Positions 14,837 through 37,507 of a stretch of DNA of 64,000 bases are shown one piece after another (position 1 is the stretch's first letter; each line of letters starts with the position of its first letter). The stretch covers positions 1 through 64,000 of the forward strand of contig SBGP01000069.1 in assembly GCA_006226595.1 (NCBI GenBank). The letters are read 5' to 3'. Origin of the DNA: Deltaproteobacteria bacterium (GTDB lineage: Bacteria; Myxococcota_A; UBA796; GCA-2862545). A program made the position numbers and the translations under genes. The notes below the pieces were generated by a model, which worked only from the letters and a program-made list of their open reading frames with translations, searched no databases and was not told the DNA's origin.

Positions 14837-17289
14837 CCCCGCGCCTCACGCCGTTGCTCGCGCTGCTCGCCCTCTCTGCCTGCAAGAAGGACGACCAGGA
14901 CACGGGCACGCTCCCCCCCTGCTACGTCGACGAGGTCCCGCCCGAGGCCCAGCGCCGCTTCGGGCCCCAGGAGGACGGTAGCTTCATCAGCTTCGGTGGC
15001 CGGTTGATCCAGCCGGCGGGCCCGACGGTGAACATCGCGAACATGCCGATCGATCTCGCGGTGCACCCGGACGCAAGCACGGCGTACATCGTCACCGTCG
15101 ATCGCGGAGATACGTCGATCCAGGTCCTCGACCTCGACACGCTCACCGTGAGCCAGACGCTGCAGACGGGCCACCTGAACCACGGCATCGTCGTCGACGC
15201 GGCCGGCACGACGCTCTACGCCGCAGGCGGCGCCGCCGAGCAGATCTACGTGTTCGACATCGCAATCGACGGCAGCCTCACCGTGGGCACGAACATCCCC
15301 GTCTCGGGCTCGCGCATCGCGGGCCTCGCGCTGTCCGCGGACGGAGGCACGCTCTACGCCGCGAGCTTCACCCGGACCGAGGCCTACGAGATCGACACGG
15401 CGACGGGCGCGGTGCTCCGCACCTTCGACACCTCCACGAACGGCTGGGACGTCGAGCTGCTGCCGACCCGCAACGAGCTGTACATCAGCGACCTCGATGG
15501 CACCGAGCTCAGCGTCGTCGACCTCGCGAGCGGCACCGAGACCGCGGTGATTCCCGTGCCGGTGAGCCCGGCCGGCATGGCGGTGAGCGCGGACGAGGCG
15601 ACCGTGTTCGTCGCAGTCTCGAACGGCGACCGGGTCGCCGCCGTCGACACGGCCACGGCCAGCGTGCGCGCCGAGGCCGACGTCACCGAGCACGACCTGC
15701 TCGACGCGGACGGCCTGCCCCTCGGCAACAGCAACATCAACGCGGTGTGGCTCGATGGCGACCGCCTGTACGCGAGTCGCGGATCGGACAACGCGGTGAG
15801 CGTGCTCGACGCCGCGACCCTCGAGGTGCTCGGCGCGATCCCGACGGCCGAGTACCCGACCGAGCTCCAGGTCGTCGGCGACACACTGGTCGTCGCCGCG
15901 TACACCGGCAGCGGCGAGCAGTCCGGCGCGGTCTCCGCCATCGACCTGGCGGGGCTCGACCTCGCGCTGTCCGCCGAGGACGTCGCGTCGCTGTACGCGA
16001 GCCCGACGGAGCGCTTCCCGTTCAGCTGCGACGACGGCTTCTTCCCGATCCCGACGAGCCCGGAACAGGTCTCCCCCATCGAACACGTCGTGCTCGTGGT
16101 CAAGGAGAACAAGACCATGGACTGCCTGTTCGGCGACATGGTGCACCCCGGGCTGACCCTCGACCCGGCGTCGCAGCGCTGGCCGAGCGAGCTCACGCCG
16201 AACCAGCGCCAGCTGATCCGCAGCTTCAACAGCGCCGACAACTTCTATGTCGACACGCGTGAGTCCGACTCGGGGCACGTGATGCTCACCTCGACGCACC
16301 TGACGCACTGGGTCGAGTTCCAGTGGGTCGAGACGTCGCGGGTCGGCGCCTCGCTCGCGTGGCCCCTGTCGGACATGGCGATGCCGACCACCGGCAACTT
16401 CTTCACGCACCTGCACGAGCACGGAAAGAGCCTTGCGATCTACGGCGAGATCGTCGGCGTGAGCGCCGAGGCCTCCGACGGCACGCGCATGGCCGAGTAC
16501 ACCGACACCGACTACCCCGGCGGTCCCGCGATCAACTACGCGGTGCCCGACGAGGAGAAAGCCGCGTACATCGTCGAGGAGTGGCTCGACGACGGCCTCG
16601 CCGACTTCACCTTCGTCAGCTTCCCGAATGACCACACCAACGGCACCGGGTCCGGCGACCCGACGCCGGAGTCGATGATCGCCGACAACGACCGGGCGGT
16701 GGGCGTACTCATCGAGGGCTTGTCGACCTCCGAGTACTGGGAGAAGTCGCTGGTCATCGTCCTCCAGGATGACCCGCAGGGCTGCGGCGACCACGTCAAC
16801 GACAGCCGCTCGCCGTTGTTCGTGGTCAGCCCGTGGGCCAAGCGCGGCGGCTACGTGAGCCCGACGACGAGCAACTTCCTGTCGGTGTTCGCGACCATCG
16901 AGCGCATTCTCGCCGTGCCGCCCATGGGGCGCCCGGACGCCGCCGCCGTGCCGCTGTGGGACTTCTTCACCCCGGATGCGGACTTCAGCCCGGTGATGGC
17001 CGTCGACCGTGTACCGCCCGAGACCAACGCGGTAGACGCGCTCGGCGCCGACGAGAAGTGGGACCTGGCGGGGCCCGACCGCGACCCGCGCTACGCCGCC
17101 TTCCTCGACATCTACGGCCGCTACCGGATGGGCTTCATCTCCCGCGAGGAAGCGGAGGCCGCGATGCGCCTGCCGCACATGGACAAGGACGAGGAGGAGT
17201 GGGAGGAGCTCGAGGAGGAGTCCGAGGAGGACAGCTTCGCGTACGACCGGGACCTGCAGTGGTACCGGGAGTGGTCGCGCGGTCGCTAG
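14833..17289 (+). CDS. Lipoprotein with YVTN-like beta-propeller and phosphoesterase (AcpA/PLC-like) domain
   Basis: This 818-residue protein begins with lipobox LLALSAC (Cys16). Residues from about 50 to 390 form repeated propeller blades such as HPDASTAYIVTVDRGDTSIQVLDL and SADGGTLYAASF. From about 417 a PF04185-type phosphoesterase domain begins with HVVLVVKENKTMDCLFGDM, followed by SDSGHVMLTSTH, and further on come SFPNDHTNG, VIVLQDDPQGCGDHVNDSRSPLFVVSPWAK and TSNFLSVFATIERIL. This matches acid phosphatases and phospholipases C of that family. The last 60 residues are very acidic (EEEWEELEEESEED). The ATGA overlap with the TonB receptor implies the pair acts together at the outer membrane, perhaps releasing and importing a ligand. 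Confidence 0.85.
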   Translation: MTPRLTPLLALLALSACKKDDQDTGTLPPCYVDEVPPEAQRRFGPQEDGSFISFGGRLIQPAGPTVNIANMPIDLAVHPDASTAYIVTVDRGDTSIQVLDLDTLTVSQTLQTGHLNHGIVVDAAGTTLYAAGGAAEQIYVFDIAIDGSLTVGTNIPVSGSRIAGLALSADGGTLYAASFTRTEAYEIDTATGAVLRTFDTSTNGWDVELLPTRNELYISDLDGTELSVVDLASGTETAVIPVPVSPAGMAVSADEATVFVAVSNGDRVAAVDTATASVRAEADVTEHDLLDADGLPLGNSNINAVWLDGDRLYASRGSDNAVSVLDAATLEVLGAIPTAEYPTELQVVGDTLVVAAYTGSGEQSGAVSAIDLAGLDLALSAEDVASLYASPTERFPFSCDDGFFPIPTSPEQVSPIEHVVLVVKENKTMDCLFGDMVHPGLTLDPASQRWPSELTPNQRQLIRSFNSADNFYVDTRESDSGHVMLTSTHLTHWVEFQWVETSRVGASLAWPLSDMAMPTTGNFFTHLHEHGKSLAIYGEIVGVSAEASDGTRMAEYTDTDYPGGPAINYAVPDEEKAAYIVEEWLDDGLADFTFVSFPNDHTNGTGSGDPTPESMIADNDRAVGVLIEGLSTSEYWEKSLVIVLQDDPQGCGDHVNDSRSPLFVVSPWAKRGGYVSPTTSNFLSVFATIERILAVPPMGRPDAAAVPLWDFFTPDADFSPVMAVDRVPPETNAVDALGADEKWDLAGPDRDPRYAAFLDIYGRYRMGFISREEAEAAMRLPHMDKDEEEWEELEEESEEDSFAYDRDLQWYREWSRGR

Positions 17290-17292
17290 CTG

Positions 17293-19824
<2,532 letters not shown>

Positions 19825-19888: not shown

Positions 19889-21814
19889 TCACTCGTCCGC
19901 CAGGAACTCGTGCTCGTACTGCACCTGGATCTCGAACTGAGGCGGCTCGCCCTCGAGAAGCAGGTTCCGCGCGAGCAGGAAGCCGGCGTGGTGACCGGCG
20001 GTGTCGAGGCGGTTGGTCTGGCCCAGGTCACGGTGCGAGAGCACCACCTCGAACATGCCGTCCTCGTCGGCCTCGATCTCGGTGTGGTTGAGGCTGATGG
20101 TGTGCCGCGTGTAGTCGAGCGACTCCATCCACGCGTTGTACAGCACCAACGAGAAGTAGCGGCTGGTGGGCAGCTTCGCGCGCACCCGCATGCACTGGTC
20201 GCGCCCGAAGCGGTACCAGCACACCTGGTAGGTGTTGTCCGGGGTCGGGAACAGGGCCTCGCCGGGGATCTGGATGAACTGGTTCAGCGCCGCCTTGTTG
20301 GCCATCTGGTAGGCCATGAGCGTGCGCTCGAACACCGCCTTGAGCATGCGCTCGGAGAGGTAGATGCGCCGCGCCATCCAGCTCGCGTCGAGCGGCGTGG
20401 GCGCCGGAGGCTCGCCGAGGAGCTCGATCTCGACGGACAGCGGCTCCTCGGTGTCGCGGTTGGTGAAGTACTGGCGCACCATGACCGCGGTCTCGTCGCC
20501 GTCACCGACGAGGGTCGGGAAGCCCTCCTGCGCGGTGGTCGCGAGGCGGATCTCGAAGCTGCGGTCGGCGTTCAGCGGGATGTCCTGGTCCACGAAGCGG
20601 TTGCCGATCCGACCGCCCTTTCCGTAGTACAGGATGCCCGCGTAGTTCGTGCCCTCGGGGATGCGGCCGCGAAGCGCGTACACGCGCCCGTCGTCGAGGC
20701 GGATCGGCGCGCGCAGGTAGTCGGTGTCCGGGTTGTCCGCGAACATCTTGCGATGCGGCCCCTCGGCGTGGCGGAACTCCGGGTTGTCGACGGTGCTGTG
20801 CTCGACGAAGGTGTCCACACTCTCGGCAAGCATGCGAAGCAGGAAGCGCCGTCCCTCGACCGCGTCGAGGTCCATGGGCAGGTCGATGTCCTTCTCGAGC
20901 TTCTTCGCGTAGTCGAACAGCGACTGCATCGCGTCCGAGAGACGGGCGATCGGCGGCAGGTCGAGGGCATCGAGGTCGTAGCCGAGCTCGGTCGCCAGGG
21001 CCTTGGTCTCGGCGGAGACCGAGCGCGGGTCGAAGCTGCGCAGCCACTTGGTTGCCAGCGACGGGTCGATCTTCTTGCGGCCCGCCATGTTCGGGTCGCC
21101 GATGGCCCGGGCCCCCTTGGGGCCGGAGATCATGCGCTTGTCGTCGCCGTAGGGGTCGGCCATCGCCGGCGCGTACTCGAGCCCGAGGGTGTCGCAGATC
21201 CGCCGGAGGCTGGCCTCGCGGGTCTCGGGCGAGTTCACCAGGTCCTCGTAGGTGACGCGGCACCAGCGGTCCTCGGGCAGCGTGGCCAGGAACTGCTTGC
21301 AGTTCTCGTTGCTGCTGCGCCACACGCCCTCGGCGCCACCCTCGAAATCACCGAGCATCACCTCGGCCATCGGCATGTTCTGCCAGCTCTTGATCACCGA
21401 GCCGGGGTGGCGGACGATCCACACGAAGCGGGCCTCGGGGTACCACTCGAGCAGCTTGGGAAGGCGCTCGGGCATCATCGCCAGGTGCGGGCACTTGTCG
21501 ATGATGAACTTGTCGCCGACGAGCTCCTGCAGGTGGTCGTAGACCTCGGGCACCGTCTTGTCCGCGAGCCGGGCCACGTGCTCCTTGGCCTCGTCCACGG
21601 TGCTGCCGGTGAGCTCGAGCACCGCACGCCGCAGGCCGCCCTTCTCCCAGAAGCGCGCTTCCATGTGCTTGGTGCGCTCGGCCATGGTGTCGTACGGGGC
21701 GAGCACCATCTCGGGAGGCGAGAACAGCTGGGGGTGGCCGGCGAGCATCACGCGCAGCAGCGTCGTGCCGCTGCGACCGGAGCCAATCACGAAGTGGACG
21801 GGGCGTCGGGACAT
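19889..21814 (-). CDS. Sulfotransferase with C-terminal DUF1214-like domain
   Basis: This 641-residue protein has an N-terminal PAPS-dependent sulfotransferase domain: the 5'-phosphosulfate loop GSGRSGTT is at 11-18 and the 3'-phosphate motif RFVWIVRHPGSVIKSW at about 129-144. The domain runs to about 330. The last 240 residues, with NTYQVCWYRFGRDQCMRV, RYFSLVLYNAW, RHTISLNHTEIE and FEVVLSHRDLG, look like the beta-rich DUF1214 fold found in DUF1254/DUF1214 proteins. I recall no common fusion of these two. GGAGGT is 5 bases before the ATG. It lies between two kinase genes on the same strand, with gaps of 23 and 64 bases. The acceptor of the sulfate is unknown. Confidence 0.82.
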   Translation of the reverse strand: MSRRPVHFVIGSGRSGTTLLRVMLAGHPQLFSPPEMVLAPYDTMAERTKHMEARFWEKGGLRRAVLELTGSTVDEAKEHVARLADKTVPEVYDHLQELVGDKFIIDKCPHLAMMPERLPKLLEWYPEARFVWIVRHPGSVIKSWQNMPMAEVMLGDFEGGAEGVWRSSNENCKQFLATLPEDRWCRVTYEDLVNSPETREASLRRICDTLGLEYAPAMADPYGDDKRMISGPKGARAIGDPNMAGRKKIDPSLATKWLRSFDPRSVSAETKALATELGYDLDALDLPPIARLSDAMQSLFDYAKKLEKDIDLPMDLDAVEGRRFLLRMLAESVDTFVEHSTVDNPEFRHAEGPHRKMFADNPDTDYLRAPIRLDDGRVYALRGRIPEGTNYAGILYYGKGGRIGNRFVDQDIPLNADRSFEIRLATTAQEGFPTLVGDGDETAVMVRQYFTNRDTEEPLSVEIELLGEPPAPTPLDASWMARRIYLSERMLKAVFERTLMAYQMANKAALNQFIQIPGEALFPTPDNTYQVCWYRFGRDQCMRVRAKLPTSRYFSLVLYNAWMESLDYTRHTISLNHTEIEADEDGMFEVVLSHRDLGQTNRLDTAGHHAGFLLARNLLLEGEPPQFEIQVQYEHEFLADE

Positions 21815-32307: not shown

Positions 32308-32751
32308 ATGCTCCTCCTCCTCGTCAGCCTGGCCTTCGCGACTCCGGAAGACGCCGAGGAGCACCCACCGCTGCCGTCGGTGGATGGCCCCCTGCTGCTG
32401 CCGCCCGTCGACCTGCCCGCGCGACCCGACCGCTGGCCCGAGCTCGAGACGCTGTCGCGCAAGCGCAACCGAAGGGCCGCGCTGACGGTGATCTCGGGCA
32501 CCGGGCTCGCGGCGGGCAGCATGATGATGGTCTCGGCGCTGCAGGCGACGTGCGACAACCTCTCACGCTGCCCCAGCGGCCCGCCGACCTTCTACCTGGG
32601 CGGCACCCTCGCCGCGGGCGCGCTGCCCGTGTTCCTCGCGGGAAGCATCCACTGGTCACGCGGAAACCAGGCCGTGCGGCGGGAAGTGTTCGCCGCCGAG
32701 GTGTCGCTGGCGCCGACCGGAAACGGCGTCGAGCTCGCGGGCCGGTTCTAG
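32308..32751 (+). CDS. Small exported or membrane protein of unknown function
   Basis: This 147-residue protein starts with a short signal-like segment (MLLLLVSLAFATPED). It has an internal helix pair around ISGTGLAAGSMMMVSAL and YLGGTLAAGALPVFLAGS, separated by CDNLSRC, which may be disulfide-bonded in the periplasm. It follows the previous gene by 4 bases, with GAGG before the ATG, so it belongs to the same operon. Its TAG stop lies inside a 14-base match to the end of the nearby transposable element. Confidence 0.65.
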   Translation: MLLLLVSLAFATPEDAEEHPPLPSVDGPLLLPPVDLPARPDRWPELETLSRKRNRRAALTVISGTGLAAGSMMMVSALQATCDNLSRCPSGPPTFYLGGTLAAGALPVFLAGSIHWSRGNQAVRREVFAAEVSLAPTGNGVELAGRF

Positions 32752-32761
32752 CAGGCTGCTG
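32748..32761 (+). repeat. Solitary match to the MITE terminal inverted repeat
   Basis: CTAGCAGGCTGCTG matches the CTAG target plus terminal repeat of the element at 36112-36339 (CTAG then CAGRCTGCTGAA). As at that element, the TAG is the stop codon of the upstream gene. No second end is seen within 300 bases, so this may be a decayed or solo end, or chance. A GC hairpin (CGGGC-GCTT-GCCCG, 32763-32776) follows, without a T-run. Confidence 0.4.
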
Positions 32762-33834: not shown

Positions 33835-36111
33835 ATGCGAGTGACCACACCCCTCCTCCTCGCGCTCATCGGCTGCGGCGGCAGCGCACTGCCAGACCGC
33901 GACCTCCACATCTGGGCGGACGCCCCCGGCGACCCCATCGCGGGTCTCGACGCCGAGACCCTCGCGCTGTACGAGCGCGGTCGCGAGGTCATGGCACGCT
34001 CCTTCTCGGAGCCCGAGGGCCTCGGGCCCACGTTCAATGCCGACTCCTGCGCGGGCTGTCACCAGTTCCCGGTCGCTGGCGGCAGTGGACCTCGGTACCG
34101 CGACTTCTTCCTCGTGCGCGCCGACCGCGGAGACGGCGTGCTCGTCGATGTCGGCACCAACGGCGAGTCGCCGGTCCGCAACCTGTACGCCGTGGGCGAC
34201 GGCCACATCGCCGAGCCCGCGAACGCCTCGGTGTATGCGCGCCGCAACGCGCCGAACGCGATGGGCATCGGCCTGCTCGCATTCGTGCCCGAGTCCGAGA
34301 TCCTCAAGCGCGAGGATGTCGACGACCGCAACGGGGACGGCATCAGCGGCAAGGCCAACTACGAGGCGGGCCACATCGGGCGCTTCGGCGTGAAGTCACA
34401 GGCCACCTCGCTCGAGTCGTTCAACCGCGGCGCGTTCTTCAACCAGATGGGTATCACCACCGACCCGCTGTTCTACAGCTTCCCGGACCAGCCCGTCGCC
34501 AGCGTGTCCCCCACCCTGCTCGACTACCTCGTGCCGAGCGCGTACGCGCAGGTCGCCGCAGCCGACGAGCCCACGGTCGACGACGATGATGCGCCCGATC
34601 CGGAGCTGTCCAACGAGGACCAGGAGGCACTGCTCGTGTTCTCCACCTACCTCGCGCCGCTGCGCCCCCGAGAGCCCGGCGATGCCGAGAAGGCGGGCGC
34701 GAAGCTGTTCAAGAAGGTCGGTTGCGCGGACTGCCACGTGCCGGCCCTCGACTCGACCATCGGCCCGATCCCCGCGTACTCGGACCTTCTCGTGCACGAC
34801 ATGGGCCCGGACTTCGCGGACGACATCACCGTCGCCCTTGCCGACCCCAGCGAGTTCCGGACCGCGCCGCTGTGGAACCTGAGCCTGCACGGCCCCTTCC
34901 TGCACGACGGGCGGGCCGAGACCATCCACGACGCCATTCTGATGCACGGCGGAGAAGGCGAGACCTCGCGCGATGCCTACGCCGAGCTCTCCGCGGACGA
35001 GCAGGCCCAGGTCCACGACTTCCTCGTCGGCCTCGGCGGCTGGGACCCCGAGCACCACGTGCTCATCCAGCCCGACGACGTCGTACCCGCCGCCGGCGAG
35101 AACGGCGGACCCGCGCGCACACTGGCCGGCGCAGAGCTCGAGCTGTGGCTCCAGGGCCGCGCCATCTTCGACGAGACGGTGACCGTGGACGAGGGCCTTG
35201 GCCCGGCGTTCAACGCGGACTCCTGCCGCGCCTGCCACCAGGACCCGGTGCTCGGCGGAGCGGGCGGGATCGACACGAGCGTGATCCGCTTCGGCAGCTG
35301 GGTCGAGGGCACCTACGTCGGCCTCGGCTCGCCGGTGCTCCCGCGCATGGTGGTCCCCGGCGAGCGGCCGCCGCGACTGCCAGACGAGACCACGGTCGTC
35401 GAGCTTCGTCAGCCGCCCACGGTGCTCGGCACCGCCGAGCTCGATGCGATCAGCGACGTCGCCATCCTCGCGAACGAGGACCCCGATGATCTCGATGGGG
35501 ACGGCATCTCCGGCCGAGCGCGCCTGGTGAATGGCATGGTCGGCCGCTACGGGTGGAAGGCCCAGGTCCCGACCGCCGCCGACTTCGCCGCCGACGCGCT
35601 GCTCAACGAGGTCGGCCGCACCATCGACGGAAGCCTGTCCCCGTTCACCGGCACCGACGACGACGACCACCCGGACCCGGAGCTCGACGAAGCCGGCTAC
35701 GAAGCCCTCGCGTTCTTCCTGCAGAACCTCGGGCGCCCGGTGCCGGTCTCGGAGGATGCGGCCGCCGAGGCGGCGGGCGAGGTCCACTTCCTCGCCGCGG
35801 GCTGCGACAGCTGTCACCTGCCCGCCCTCGACGGCGTGCCCGCGTACTCCGACCTGCTGCTCCACGATGTCGCCCCGAACCGCGAGGCGCTCGTCGATCA
35901 GGAGCCCGGCCTGCTGCCCACCGAGTTCCGCACGCCGCCCCTGTGGGGTGTCCGCGACACCGCGCCGTACTTGCACAACGGCAGCGCGAGCAACCTCGTC
36001 GATGCCGTGCTCCTCGGGCACTTCGGCGAGGCCGACGCCGCGCGCGCCTATGTCGAGGGGCTCAGCGAGTCCGAGCGGGCCGAGCTCACCGCGTTCCTGC
36101 GCAGCCTCTAG
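33835..36111 (+). CDS. Duplicated di-heme (DHOR/DUF1111-type) c-type cytochrome lipoprotein
   Basis: This 758-residue protein is a tandem repeat of the di-heme oxidoreductase family, which resembles MauG and cytochrome c peroxidase. Four heme c sites are visible: CAGCH at 72-76, CADCH at 297-301, CRACH at 464-468 and CDSCH at 657-661. Each half repeats GLGPxFNADSC, DDxDGDGISG, and FRTxPLW with a following H[DN]GRA/SA segment. A lipobox (LLALIGC) anchors it, probably in the periplasm or at the outer surface. It should carry electrons or act as a peroxidase; the substrate is unknown. GAGG precedes the ATG. The TAG stop is part of the CTAG that borders the transposable element. Confidence 0.88.
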   Translation: MRVTTPLLLALIGCGGSALPDRDLHIWADAPGDPIAGLDAETLALYERGREVMARSFSEPEGLGPTFNADSCAGCHQFPVAGGSGPRYRDFFLVRADRGDGVLVDVGTNGESPVRNLYAVGDGHIAEPANASVYARRNAPNAMGIGLLAFVPESEILKREDVDDRNGDGISGKANYEAGHIGRFGVKSQATSLESFNRGAFFNQMGITTDPLFYSFPDQPVASVSPTLLDYLVPSAYAQVAAADEPTVDDDDAPDPELSNEDQEALLVFSTYLAPLRPREPGDAEKAGAKLFKKVGCADCHVPALDSTIGPIPAYSDLLVHDMGPDFADDITVALADPSEFRTAPLWNLSLHGPFLHDGRAETIHDAILMHGGEGETSRDAYAELSADEQAQVHDFLVGLGGWDPEHHVLIQPDDVVPAAGENGGPARTLAGAELELWLQGRAIFDETVTVDEGLGPAFNADSCRACHQDPVLGGAGGIDTSVIRFGSWVEGTYVGLGSPVLPRMVVPGERPPRLPDETTVVELRQPPTVLGTAELDAISDVAILANEDPDDLDGDGISGRARLVNGMVGRYGWKAQVPTAADFAADALLNEVGRTIDGSLSPFTGTDDDDHPDPELDEAGYEALAFFLQNLGRPVPVSEDAAAEAAGEVHFLAAGCDSCHLPALDGVPAYSDLLLHDVAPNREALVDQEPGLLPTEFRTPPLWGVRDTAPYLHNGSASNLVDAVLLGHFGEADAARAYVEGLSESERAELTAFLRSL

Positions 36112-36339
36112 CAGACTGCTGAAGAAATCGGACCGAGTGGTCTGAGGGCCGTTTTGCGTATTCGGCCGGTCGTGCAGCGATTCCCCGAAAGTCGGGCCCG
36201 CAGGGTCGGCGAAAGGACCTTGGCCCTTGGCCAAGGTCACCGTAGGGGAGGGAACGTGCTGAAGCACGTGACTGACGAGACGACGGGCGAAGGCGTGAAA
36301 CGGGTCCAGAGCACGACGGGAGAGTTTTTCAGCAGCCTG
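36112..36339. mobile_element. MITE-like element, 228 bp, flanked by CTAG
   Basis: The ends are imperfect inverted repeats: CAGACTGCTGAAGAAATC on the left (36112-36129) and CAGGCTGCTGAAAAACTC read inward on the right, matching at 15 of 18 positions. CTAG flanks both sides (36108-36111 and 36340-36343), as expected of a 4-base target duplication. The interior holds no plausible transposase. It contains a 12-base palindrome CCTTGGCCAAGG (36225-36236) and a hairpin ACGTGCT-GA-AGCACGT (36254-36269). The end sequence resembles inverted repeats I remember from IS1182-type elements, but that is from memory. The element lies exactly between two convergent genes and makes part of both stop codons. Confidence 0.75.
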
Positions 36340-37320
36340 CTAGGCCAGCTGCGACGGCTTGAGGCCCGGGGACCTGCCCGCGGCCTCGGCCTCCCGTACC
36401 AGCGCCACGAGGCGTCGGTTCATCGGCGTCGGCACCCCATGCGCCTCGCCGAGTGCGACGATCACACCGTTCAGGTCGTCGATCTCGGTCGGCTTGCCCC
36501 GGGTGACGTCCTCCCACATCGAGCTGCGCGCCTGGGGATCGACCTTGAGCATCGACCGCGCGACCAGCCGAAACAAGGGCGTCGGCAGGCGCAGCGCGAA
36601 GGGCGCGAGGTTCGGGAGCAGCTTGCCCAGACGCACCGGCGGCTTGCCCGCGGCGGTGAGCACTGCCCGCGCCTCGTCCATGGTCGCGGCGAGCACCCGG
36701 CGGTAGCCCGGGTCCATGAGCTGCTCGCGTAGCGGCAGGTCCGCCAGCGCGTTCACGGCGTTGTTCACGTTGAACACGAGCTTCGCGGCGAGCACCCGAT
36801 CCATGTCCGCCCGCTCGAGGACCTCGAAGCCCGCGTCGCGAAGCGCACGCGCGAGGGCCACCGACTCCGGGGCGGCCTCGACGGCGACGGGACCGCTGGT
36901 GCCACGCTTGAACGCGGCGTCTGCCGTGCGCACGACGTTGAACGAGATCATGCCGGCCAGCACGCGCTGATCGGGCATCACCGCCCGCAAGCGCTGGGCG
37001 TTGTCGAGGCCGTTCTGGCAGCTCATCACCGGCATGCCGGCGGGAAGCACCGCGGCGAGCTGCTCGCCCGCGGCGGTGGTGTCCTTGCCCTTCACCGCGA
37101 CGAGCACGGCATCGCAGTCGGCGAGGACCTCGGGCGAGGTCACCACCTGCGGGTGCACGCGAACCGGCGGCCCGGAGAGATCGGTGAGCGAGAGGCCGTC
37201 CGCGGCGATGGCCTCCGCGAGCCACGGCCGGCCGACGAGCACGACCTCGTGACCCGCCGCGGCGAGCTGACCGCCCAACCAGCACCCGATGGCTCCCGCT
37301 CCGTGCACGCCAAGCTTCAC
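36340..37320 (-). CDS. panE: 2-dehydropantoate 2-reductase-like (ApbA/PanE family)
   Basis: This 326-residue NADPH-dependent reductase of the ketopantoate family should act in pantothenate and coenzyme A synthesis, or on a similar 2-keto acid. The nucleotide motif GAGAIGCWLGG is at 7-17. VAVKGKDT and SCQNGLDN hold the family Lys and Asn, and KLVFNVNNAVNAL holds the catalytic-helix Lys. WEDVTRGKPTEIDDLNG is the usual C-terminal motif. The GTG start has GGGGGAGGT 4 bases upstream. Its stop TAG is formed by the CTAG at the right border of the small element. No other CoA gene is near, so the symbol is tentative. Confidence 0.82.
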   Translation of the reverse strand: MKLGVHGAGAIGCWLGGQLAAAGHEVVLVGRPWLAEAIAADGLSLTDLSGPPVRVHPQVVTSPEVLADCDAVLVAVKGKDTTAAGEQLAAVLPAGMPVMSCQNGLDNAQRLRAVMPDQRVLAGMISFNVVRTADAAFKRGTSGPVAVEAAPESVALARALRDAGFEVLERADMDRVLAAKLVFNVNNAVNALADLPLREQLMDPGYRRVLAATMDEARAVLTAAGKPPVRLGKLLPNLAPFALRLPTPLFRLVARSMLKVDPQARSSMWEDVTRGKPTEIDDLNGVIVALGEAHGVPTPMNRRLVALVREAEAAGRSPGLKPSQLA

Positions 37321-37507
37321 GGCACCTCCCCCTCCCGGCGTATCGCAAGCACCCCCGCGCGCCACCGTGCGCTGTTCGAGGCCCGCCTGGTCCTCCCAGC
37401 GTGCACGCGTCGTCGTCGCCGGGTGCGCGTCTGCTGGCGGCGAGACAAACCGTGGCATGCATCCGCCAGGTCTTCCCTACAAGATGAATGATGGGAGGAA
37501 TGTGCTG
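37321..37507. promoter_or_regulatory. Divergent intergenic region, panE-like gene / unknown gene
   Basis: These 187 bases are one of the few sizeable gaps in the window and should hold promoters in both directions. I see the two ribosome sites (GGAGGT on the minus strand near 37325, GGGAGGAA at 37493-37500) but no convincing promoter consensus. In-frame ATG codons at 37457 and 37484 lack a ribosome site. Confidence 0.4.

Follow-up and report, generated by a model that had tools for sequence, protein, structure and literature searches.

A 228-bp inverted-repeat element between two convergent stop codons

The window, that is, the whole stretch of 64,000 nucleotides analysed here, carries two convergent genes, one of di-haem cytochrome type and one panE-like, and between their stop codons a short inverted-repeat element bounded by CTAG on both sides (Table 1). 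The preliminary description of this DNA had recognized an element of 228 bp between the CTAG at 36108-36111, supplying the TAG of the cytochrome gene, and the CTAG at 36340-36343, supplying on the other strand that of the panE-like gene, and this proved right to the base. Both open reading frames end in an intact TAG (CTC TAG and GCC TAG, respectively), so that the accompanying claim of an insertion neutral for both proteins stands. The start of the panE-like gene was set at 37320 by a codon-model call within an open reading frame reaching 37458.

Table 1. Features of the element and its two flanking genes (positions in the window)
Feature	Position	Strand	Remarks
Di-haem cytochrome-type gene, 758 aa	33835..36111	+	Ends CTC TAG at 36111, in the left CTAG
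Left CTAG, target-site copy	36108..36111	.	TAG stop of the cytochrome gene; element-free orthologues also end in CTAG
MITE, long form, non-autonomous inverted-repeat element, 228 bp	36112..36339	.	
Left terminal inverted repeat, CAGACTGCTGAAGAA	36112..36126	+	
Segment of ~50 bp missing in the ~185-bp copies	36194..36247	.	From copy alignment and repeat search
Right terminal inverted repeat, CAGGCTGCTGAAAAA (minus-strand reading)	36325..36339	-	
Right CTAG, target-site copy	36340..36343	.	Minus-strand TAG stop of the panE-like gene; orthologue in G001 ends GCC TAG
panE-like gene (ketopantoate reductase type; name from the preliminary description)	36340..37458	-	Ends GCC TAG at 36340, in the right CTAG

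The terminal 19 nt of the two ends are complementary at 17 of 19 positions, as against a maximum of 14 among 20,000 random 236-nt segments of the same DNA. The element folds much more stably than its dinucleotide shuffles (z = -7.6 as DNA, -8.0 and -7.0 as RNA); its stem is due to the long inverted repeats, and a perfect hairpin (36216-36225/36229-36238) lies inside the segment missing from the shorter copies. Short, with terminal inverted repeats and without a transposase gene, the element has the build of a MITE. Elsewhere in the window, a lone CTAGCAGGCTGCTG end without partner lies at 32748-32761, right where the gene at 32308-32751 has its TAG stop, and is a probable remnant of another copy.

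Copies of the element and their empty sites

A search of the 7.23 Mb of the genome itself (117 contigs) revealed dozens of copies, the best of which is 87% identical to the window element across its full length. The 19-mer CTAGCAGGCTGCTGAAAAA gave 59 matches at up to 3 mismatches and the reversed control pattern none, and after removal of duplicates the family numbers 60 distinct ends, hence at least 30 insertions, so that the further copies with the same ends anticipated by the preliminary description do exist and are dispersed, as expected of a MITE. Many contigs terminate inside a copy, indicating that the family breaks the assembly. Alignment of 13 copies resolved two forms, the long one of 236 bp found in the window and one of ~185 bp without about 50 bp around the hairpin at 36216-36238. 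In long copies (L002 and L030, for example), the sequence on either side of the missing part is retained, which makes the short form appear to be a deletion derivative of the long one. Two remnants of 56 and 63 bp (L098 and L035, respectively) have kept both ends.

Across the order, the distribution is patchy: 54 ends were counted here, against 1 in G001, a sister genome of the same genus, 34 in G017, which belongs to another genus of the same family, and a few in others. In G001, a degraded copy (L066, contig 58) lies between dnaN and recF, with the ATG of recF directly after the right CTAG. The ends in G017 are mostly of the variant CTGCAAAA, and this genome carries a second CTAG MITE family with ends CTAGCAGGCTGCTGCAAAA (L295-L314), several ends of which lie not at a stop but 12-29 bp before a gene reading away from the element. 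Behind the single ends in C103, C112, C116 and others, we found no full insertion sequence, only remnants.

Comparison with G001, the one same-genus genome used for empty sites, was informative at three other copies. The L002 site, between a response-regulator-like gene and rpmB, reads CGTCCCTAGACGG in G001 and holds a single CTAG. For the L022 site, between lon and a Cys-rich gene, the G001 sequence is CTCGAGAGCTAGAGCCC, and for the L007 site, between a SURF1-like gene and a cytochrome c gene, it is GTCGAGGACTAGCGGATCGC; in both of these, one CTAG ends the two convergent genes. The filled and empty sites differ by the element and one CTAG, save that some additional bases are seen at L022 and a spacer of 61 bp at L007. 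The L002 and L022 elements are thus flanked by two CTAGs where G001 has one, and the L007 element has CCAG as its right copy. The empty sites of these copies, as distinct from the window locus, therefore reveal the target-site duplication expected of a MITE, which is formally indistinguishable from a CTAG carried on one end of the element. The L007 spacer (1686-1746), which contains a terminator-like hairpin, has CTAG-type words at its borders and is absent at the orthologous site of G001, is possibly another small insertion.

At the window locus, G001 has no element at the orthologue of either flanking gene. Its cytochrome orthologue (74% identity) ends CTC TAG, as does a more distant one in G013 (56%), and its panE orthologue (71%) ends GCC TAG; as these element-free orthologues end in CTAG, both CTAG stops predate the insertion. 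The two orthologues are not neighbours in G001, where the cytochrome gene faces a convergent gene of LysR type and a sulfotransferase gene follows panE, and for this reason the fused single-CTAG junction is not visible at this locus. Hence, the junction predicted by the preliminary description was recovered at the L007 and L022 sites and not at the window locus itself.

Altogether, we consider the window element to be, with high probability, one copy of a MITE family that inserted at CTAG through an IS5-type transposase acting in trans. An alternative, which we hold to be unlikely, is that the cytochrome and panE genes, each with a CTAG stop of its own, once had a copy apiece at these stops, and that homologous recombination between the two copies joined the gene ends around a hybrid element, in which case a fused CTAG never existed here. 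In G001 both genes do have CTAG stops next to other neighbours, and the orthologue of the sulfotransferase gene adjacent to panE in G001 now lies at window positions 19889-21814, 14.5 kb from panE at 36340, so that the stretch with the cytochrome gene has been rearranged between the two species. Against such an origin, the reciprocal product was not found (for the LysR-type gene, the own genome offers nothing closer than a match of 36% identity), the rearranged stretch bears neither a CTAG nor an element on its sulfotransferase side, and a CTAG serving as both stops is common among convergent genes here (10 of the 62 pairs in the 464-kb control set described below).

CTAG as target word and the placement of copies

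As control set we used 464 kb of the same genome, made up of L218-L237 and the window, with genes called by a simple codon model trained on the control DNA in place of standard annotation. CTAG occurs 96 times in this DNA against 417 expected from trinucleotides, a depletion of about fourfold and the strongest among the tetramers checked. Outside the elements, 52 of the 92 control CTAGs are TAG stops, and only 10-11 are intragenic though 92% of the control DNA is coding. With CTAG confined mainly to stops, an element that requires this word lands at gene ends, in keeping with the earlier proposal that CTAG targeting favours stop codons, which is upheld by these 52 stops and by the 37 of 60 element ends that abut one. 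The entire window holds nine CTAGs, two of them at the element.

In placement tests that were chosen after the first copies had been seen, these 37/60 ends abutting a stop compared with 62/184 control CTAG flanks (p = 0.0002), 55/60 ends faced a gene running toward the element compared with 92/158 non-coding control flanks (p = 7e-7), and 12/14 complete copies lay between convergent genes compared with 25/92 control CTAGs (p = 4e-5; 11/13 and p = 1e-4 without the window copy). At 51 of the 60 ends, the stop of the facing gene is within 30 bp. The convergent excess also holds against stop-codon CTAGs alone (12/14 versus 23/52, p = 0.007), so that, going beyond the distribution of CTAG, it requires selection or function in addition. 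Copies with both stops exactly at the two CTAGs (3/14, namely L001, L010, and L098) were not significantly enriched over the 10/92 controls (p = 0.37). Placement at stops was likewise seen for the separate G017 MITE family (9/29 ends versus 11/132 control flanks, p = 0.0025) and, by a cruder open-frame test, for element flanks in other phyla (54/150 versus 89/737, p = 3e-11).

We propose the following course of events. A transposase of IS5 type, no longer present in the assembly, would have recognized the CAGGCTGCTGAAAAA ends in trans and placed the element in a palindromic CTAG, with duplication of this word. In this genome of 70% GC, CTAG is rare, formed mainly by the last base of a final codon and TAG, and sometimes common to two convergent genes. 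The word being palindromic and reading TAG on both strands, its duplication would leave each convergent gene with its last codon and its own intact TAG, so that neither protein would be altered. Insertions inside genes or between cotranscribed genes were probably lost by selection, and such purging of harmful insertions would leave the surviving copies mostly between convergent genes.

The same placement raises the alternative, in our view rather improbable, that copies were kept as two-way transcription terminators or as stabilizers of RNA ends between convergent genes. The orientation of the facing genes (55/60 ends, 51 of them within 30 bp of the stop), the convergent excess over stop-codon CTAGs (p = 0.007) and the very stable folds of the element are all consistent with it. 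Nevertheless, the intrinsic terminator pattern, a G+C-rich hairpin directly followed by a T run, was found at 0 sites between 35600 and 36850 on both strands, and a search of Rfam with the element gave no match. Among the 13 complete or nearly complete copies, two-sided change was seen in 2 of the 57 predicted pairs, with an unfavourable covariation term of +2.36, so that the element displays neither the compensatory changes nor the Rfam family of a structured RNA. On these results, the role as terminators or insulators that the preliminary description had thought possible for the interior hairpins is not supported. Moreover, the 56- and 63-bp remnants occupy the same kind of site, and loss of insertions from tandem junctions and from genes yields the same pattern without function; the convergent excess fits a terminator role and the purging of harmful insertions equally well. 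It seems more doubtful still that the MITE family was recruited genome-wide as a boundary of convergent genes, at which the transcripts arriving from either side are ended or trimmed; if this were true, CTAG transposition would give a compact genome with overlapping convergent stops its 3'-end regulatory hairpins.

This family is a clear and countable example of how a target word can render a transposon nearly harmless, as CTAG is depleted in the host except at gene ends and the element duplicates this stop-bearing word, both convergent TAGs being kept. It can now be tested what share of the success of bacterial MITEs is due to a target word restricted to stop codons, and whether overlapping genes acquire 3'-end hairpins from insertions of this kind.

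Same-end transposons and related systems

Public genomes belonging to many phyla contain exact 19-mer ends, in at least 116 stretches. Three of these are complete insertion sequences, 1291-1310 bp long and bounded by the same ends, from Gemmatimonadales (L125), Terriglobia (L126), and Acidobacteria (L169), and at seven further loci the same transposase, whole or partial, stands beside one matching end, so that the ends of the MITE are also those of autonomous elements. Its earlier designation as a MITE is borne out by the terminal inverted repeats, by the 60 distinct ends, and by these same ends on insertion sequences elsewhere. The three complete elements, with their CTAGCAGGCTGCTGAAAAA ends, share with the MITE the terminal 19-20 nt and the CTAG borders (one right border reads CTAA, and one inner right repeat is degraded); they differ from it in their 1.3-kb length, transposase gene, dissimilar interior and hosts, which are Gemmatimonadales, Terriglobia, and other Acidobacteria.

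The transposase of the same-end elements is a protein of about 364 aa with DUF772 and DDE_Tnp_1 domains. Family models were run on the L169 transposase, which is 58-76% identical to those of L125 and L126; it passed the IS5 family model NF033581 (267 bits, cut-off of 140) and scored below the cut-off of the IS1182 model NF033551 (198 bits, cut-off of 270; E = 3.5e-58). The same-end elements thus carry a transposase of IS5 type that is related to IS1182 and below its cut-off, which corrects the preliminary description, where an IS1182-like transposase had been guessed. Membership of the element in the IS1182 family, to which the match to NF033551 and the targeting of palindromes by some members (PMC5678879, citing Siguier et al.) would lend themselves, is very unlikely given these scores and given that IS1272, of the IS1182 family, replaces its target inverted repeat without duplication (PMC5678879), at variance with the single-CTAG empty sites described above.

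That the element is a chance palindrome or a REP-type extragenic repeat and no transposon derivative, as its hairpin-rich, intergenic, and repeated character might suggest, is scarcely credible and was rejected, being already contradicted by the defined CTAG ends, the length of about 185-236 bp, the single-CTAG empty sites, and the transposase-bearing elements with the same ends.

The own genome gave no match to PF13751, PF05598, or the L169 protein, so that the same-end transposase for which the preliminary description had proposed a search was not found in it; an autonomous partner in the same genome is a common and not a defining trait of MITEs. None was detected in 20 other genomes of the family either, apart from one weak match of 26%. 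The partner has therefore been lost or is missing from the draft assembly, which may lack repeats, and with no such transposase nearby in the family we infer the mobilizer from distant genomes of other phyla. There is precedent for orphan MITEs, which lack a working transposase, in Haloquadratum (PMC3119063).

The closest described case is MITEPsy1 of Pseudomonas syringae, an element of 100 nt with 18-nt inverted repeats containing CTGAAAAAG, which is found inserted after CTAG or YTAA, 4 nt being duplicated, and is probably moved by the IS5-family ISPsy2 (PMC3189936). Both are short non-coding elements with a CTAG-type target, a 4-nt duplication, and an IS5-family transposase as likely mover, so that the kind is already known. 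MITEPsy1 has six copies, two interrupting loci, two intergenic, and two inside other transposons (PMC3189936), whereas the present family has at least 30 insertions, most of them at convergent stop codons, and no transposase in the assembly; its stop-codon niche is unusually clear. IS1272 and the IS1182 family offer a related DDE transposase and, in some members, palindrome targeting; IS1272 takes the place of a target stem-loop and leaves no duplication (PMC5678879), whereas here one CTAG becomes two. Searches of open-access papers gave none that describes CTAG elements at stop codons, and none joining CTAG-duplicating MITEs with four-base convergent overlaps. Such overlaps (CTAG, CTAA, TTAA, and TTAG) are themselves known (PMC2174442); the shared-stop junction that they form is the insertion site here, and in the part of that paper available it is not treated as a transposon target. 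The window also has a natural element-free site of the targeted kind at 17286-17296, where two convergent genes each have their own CTAG stop, 7 bp apart.
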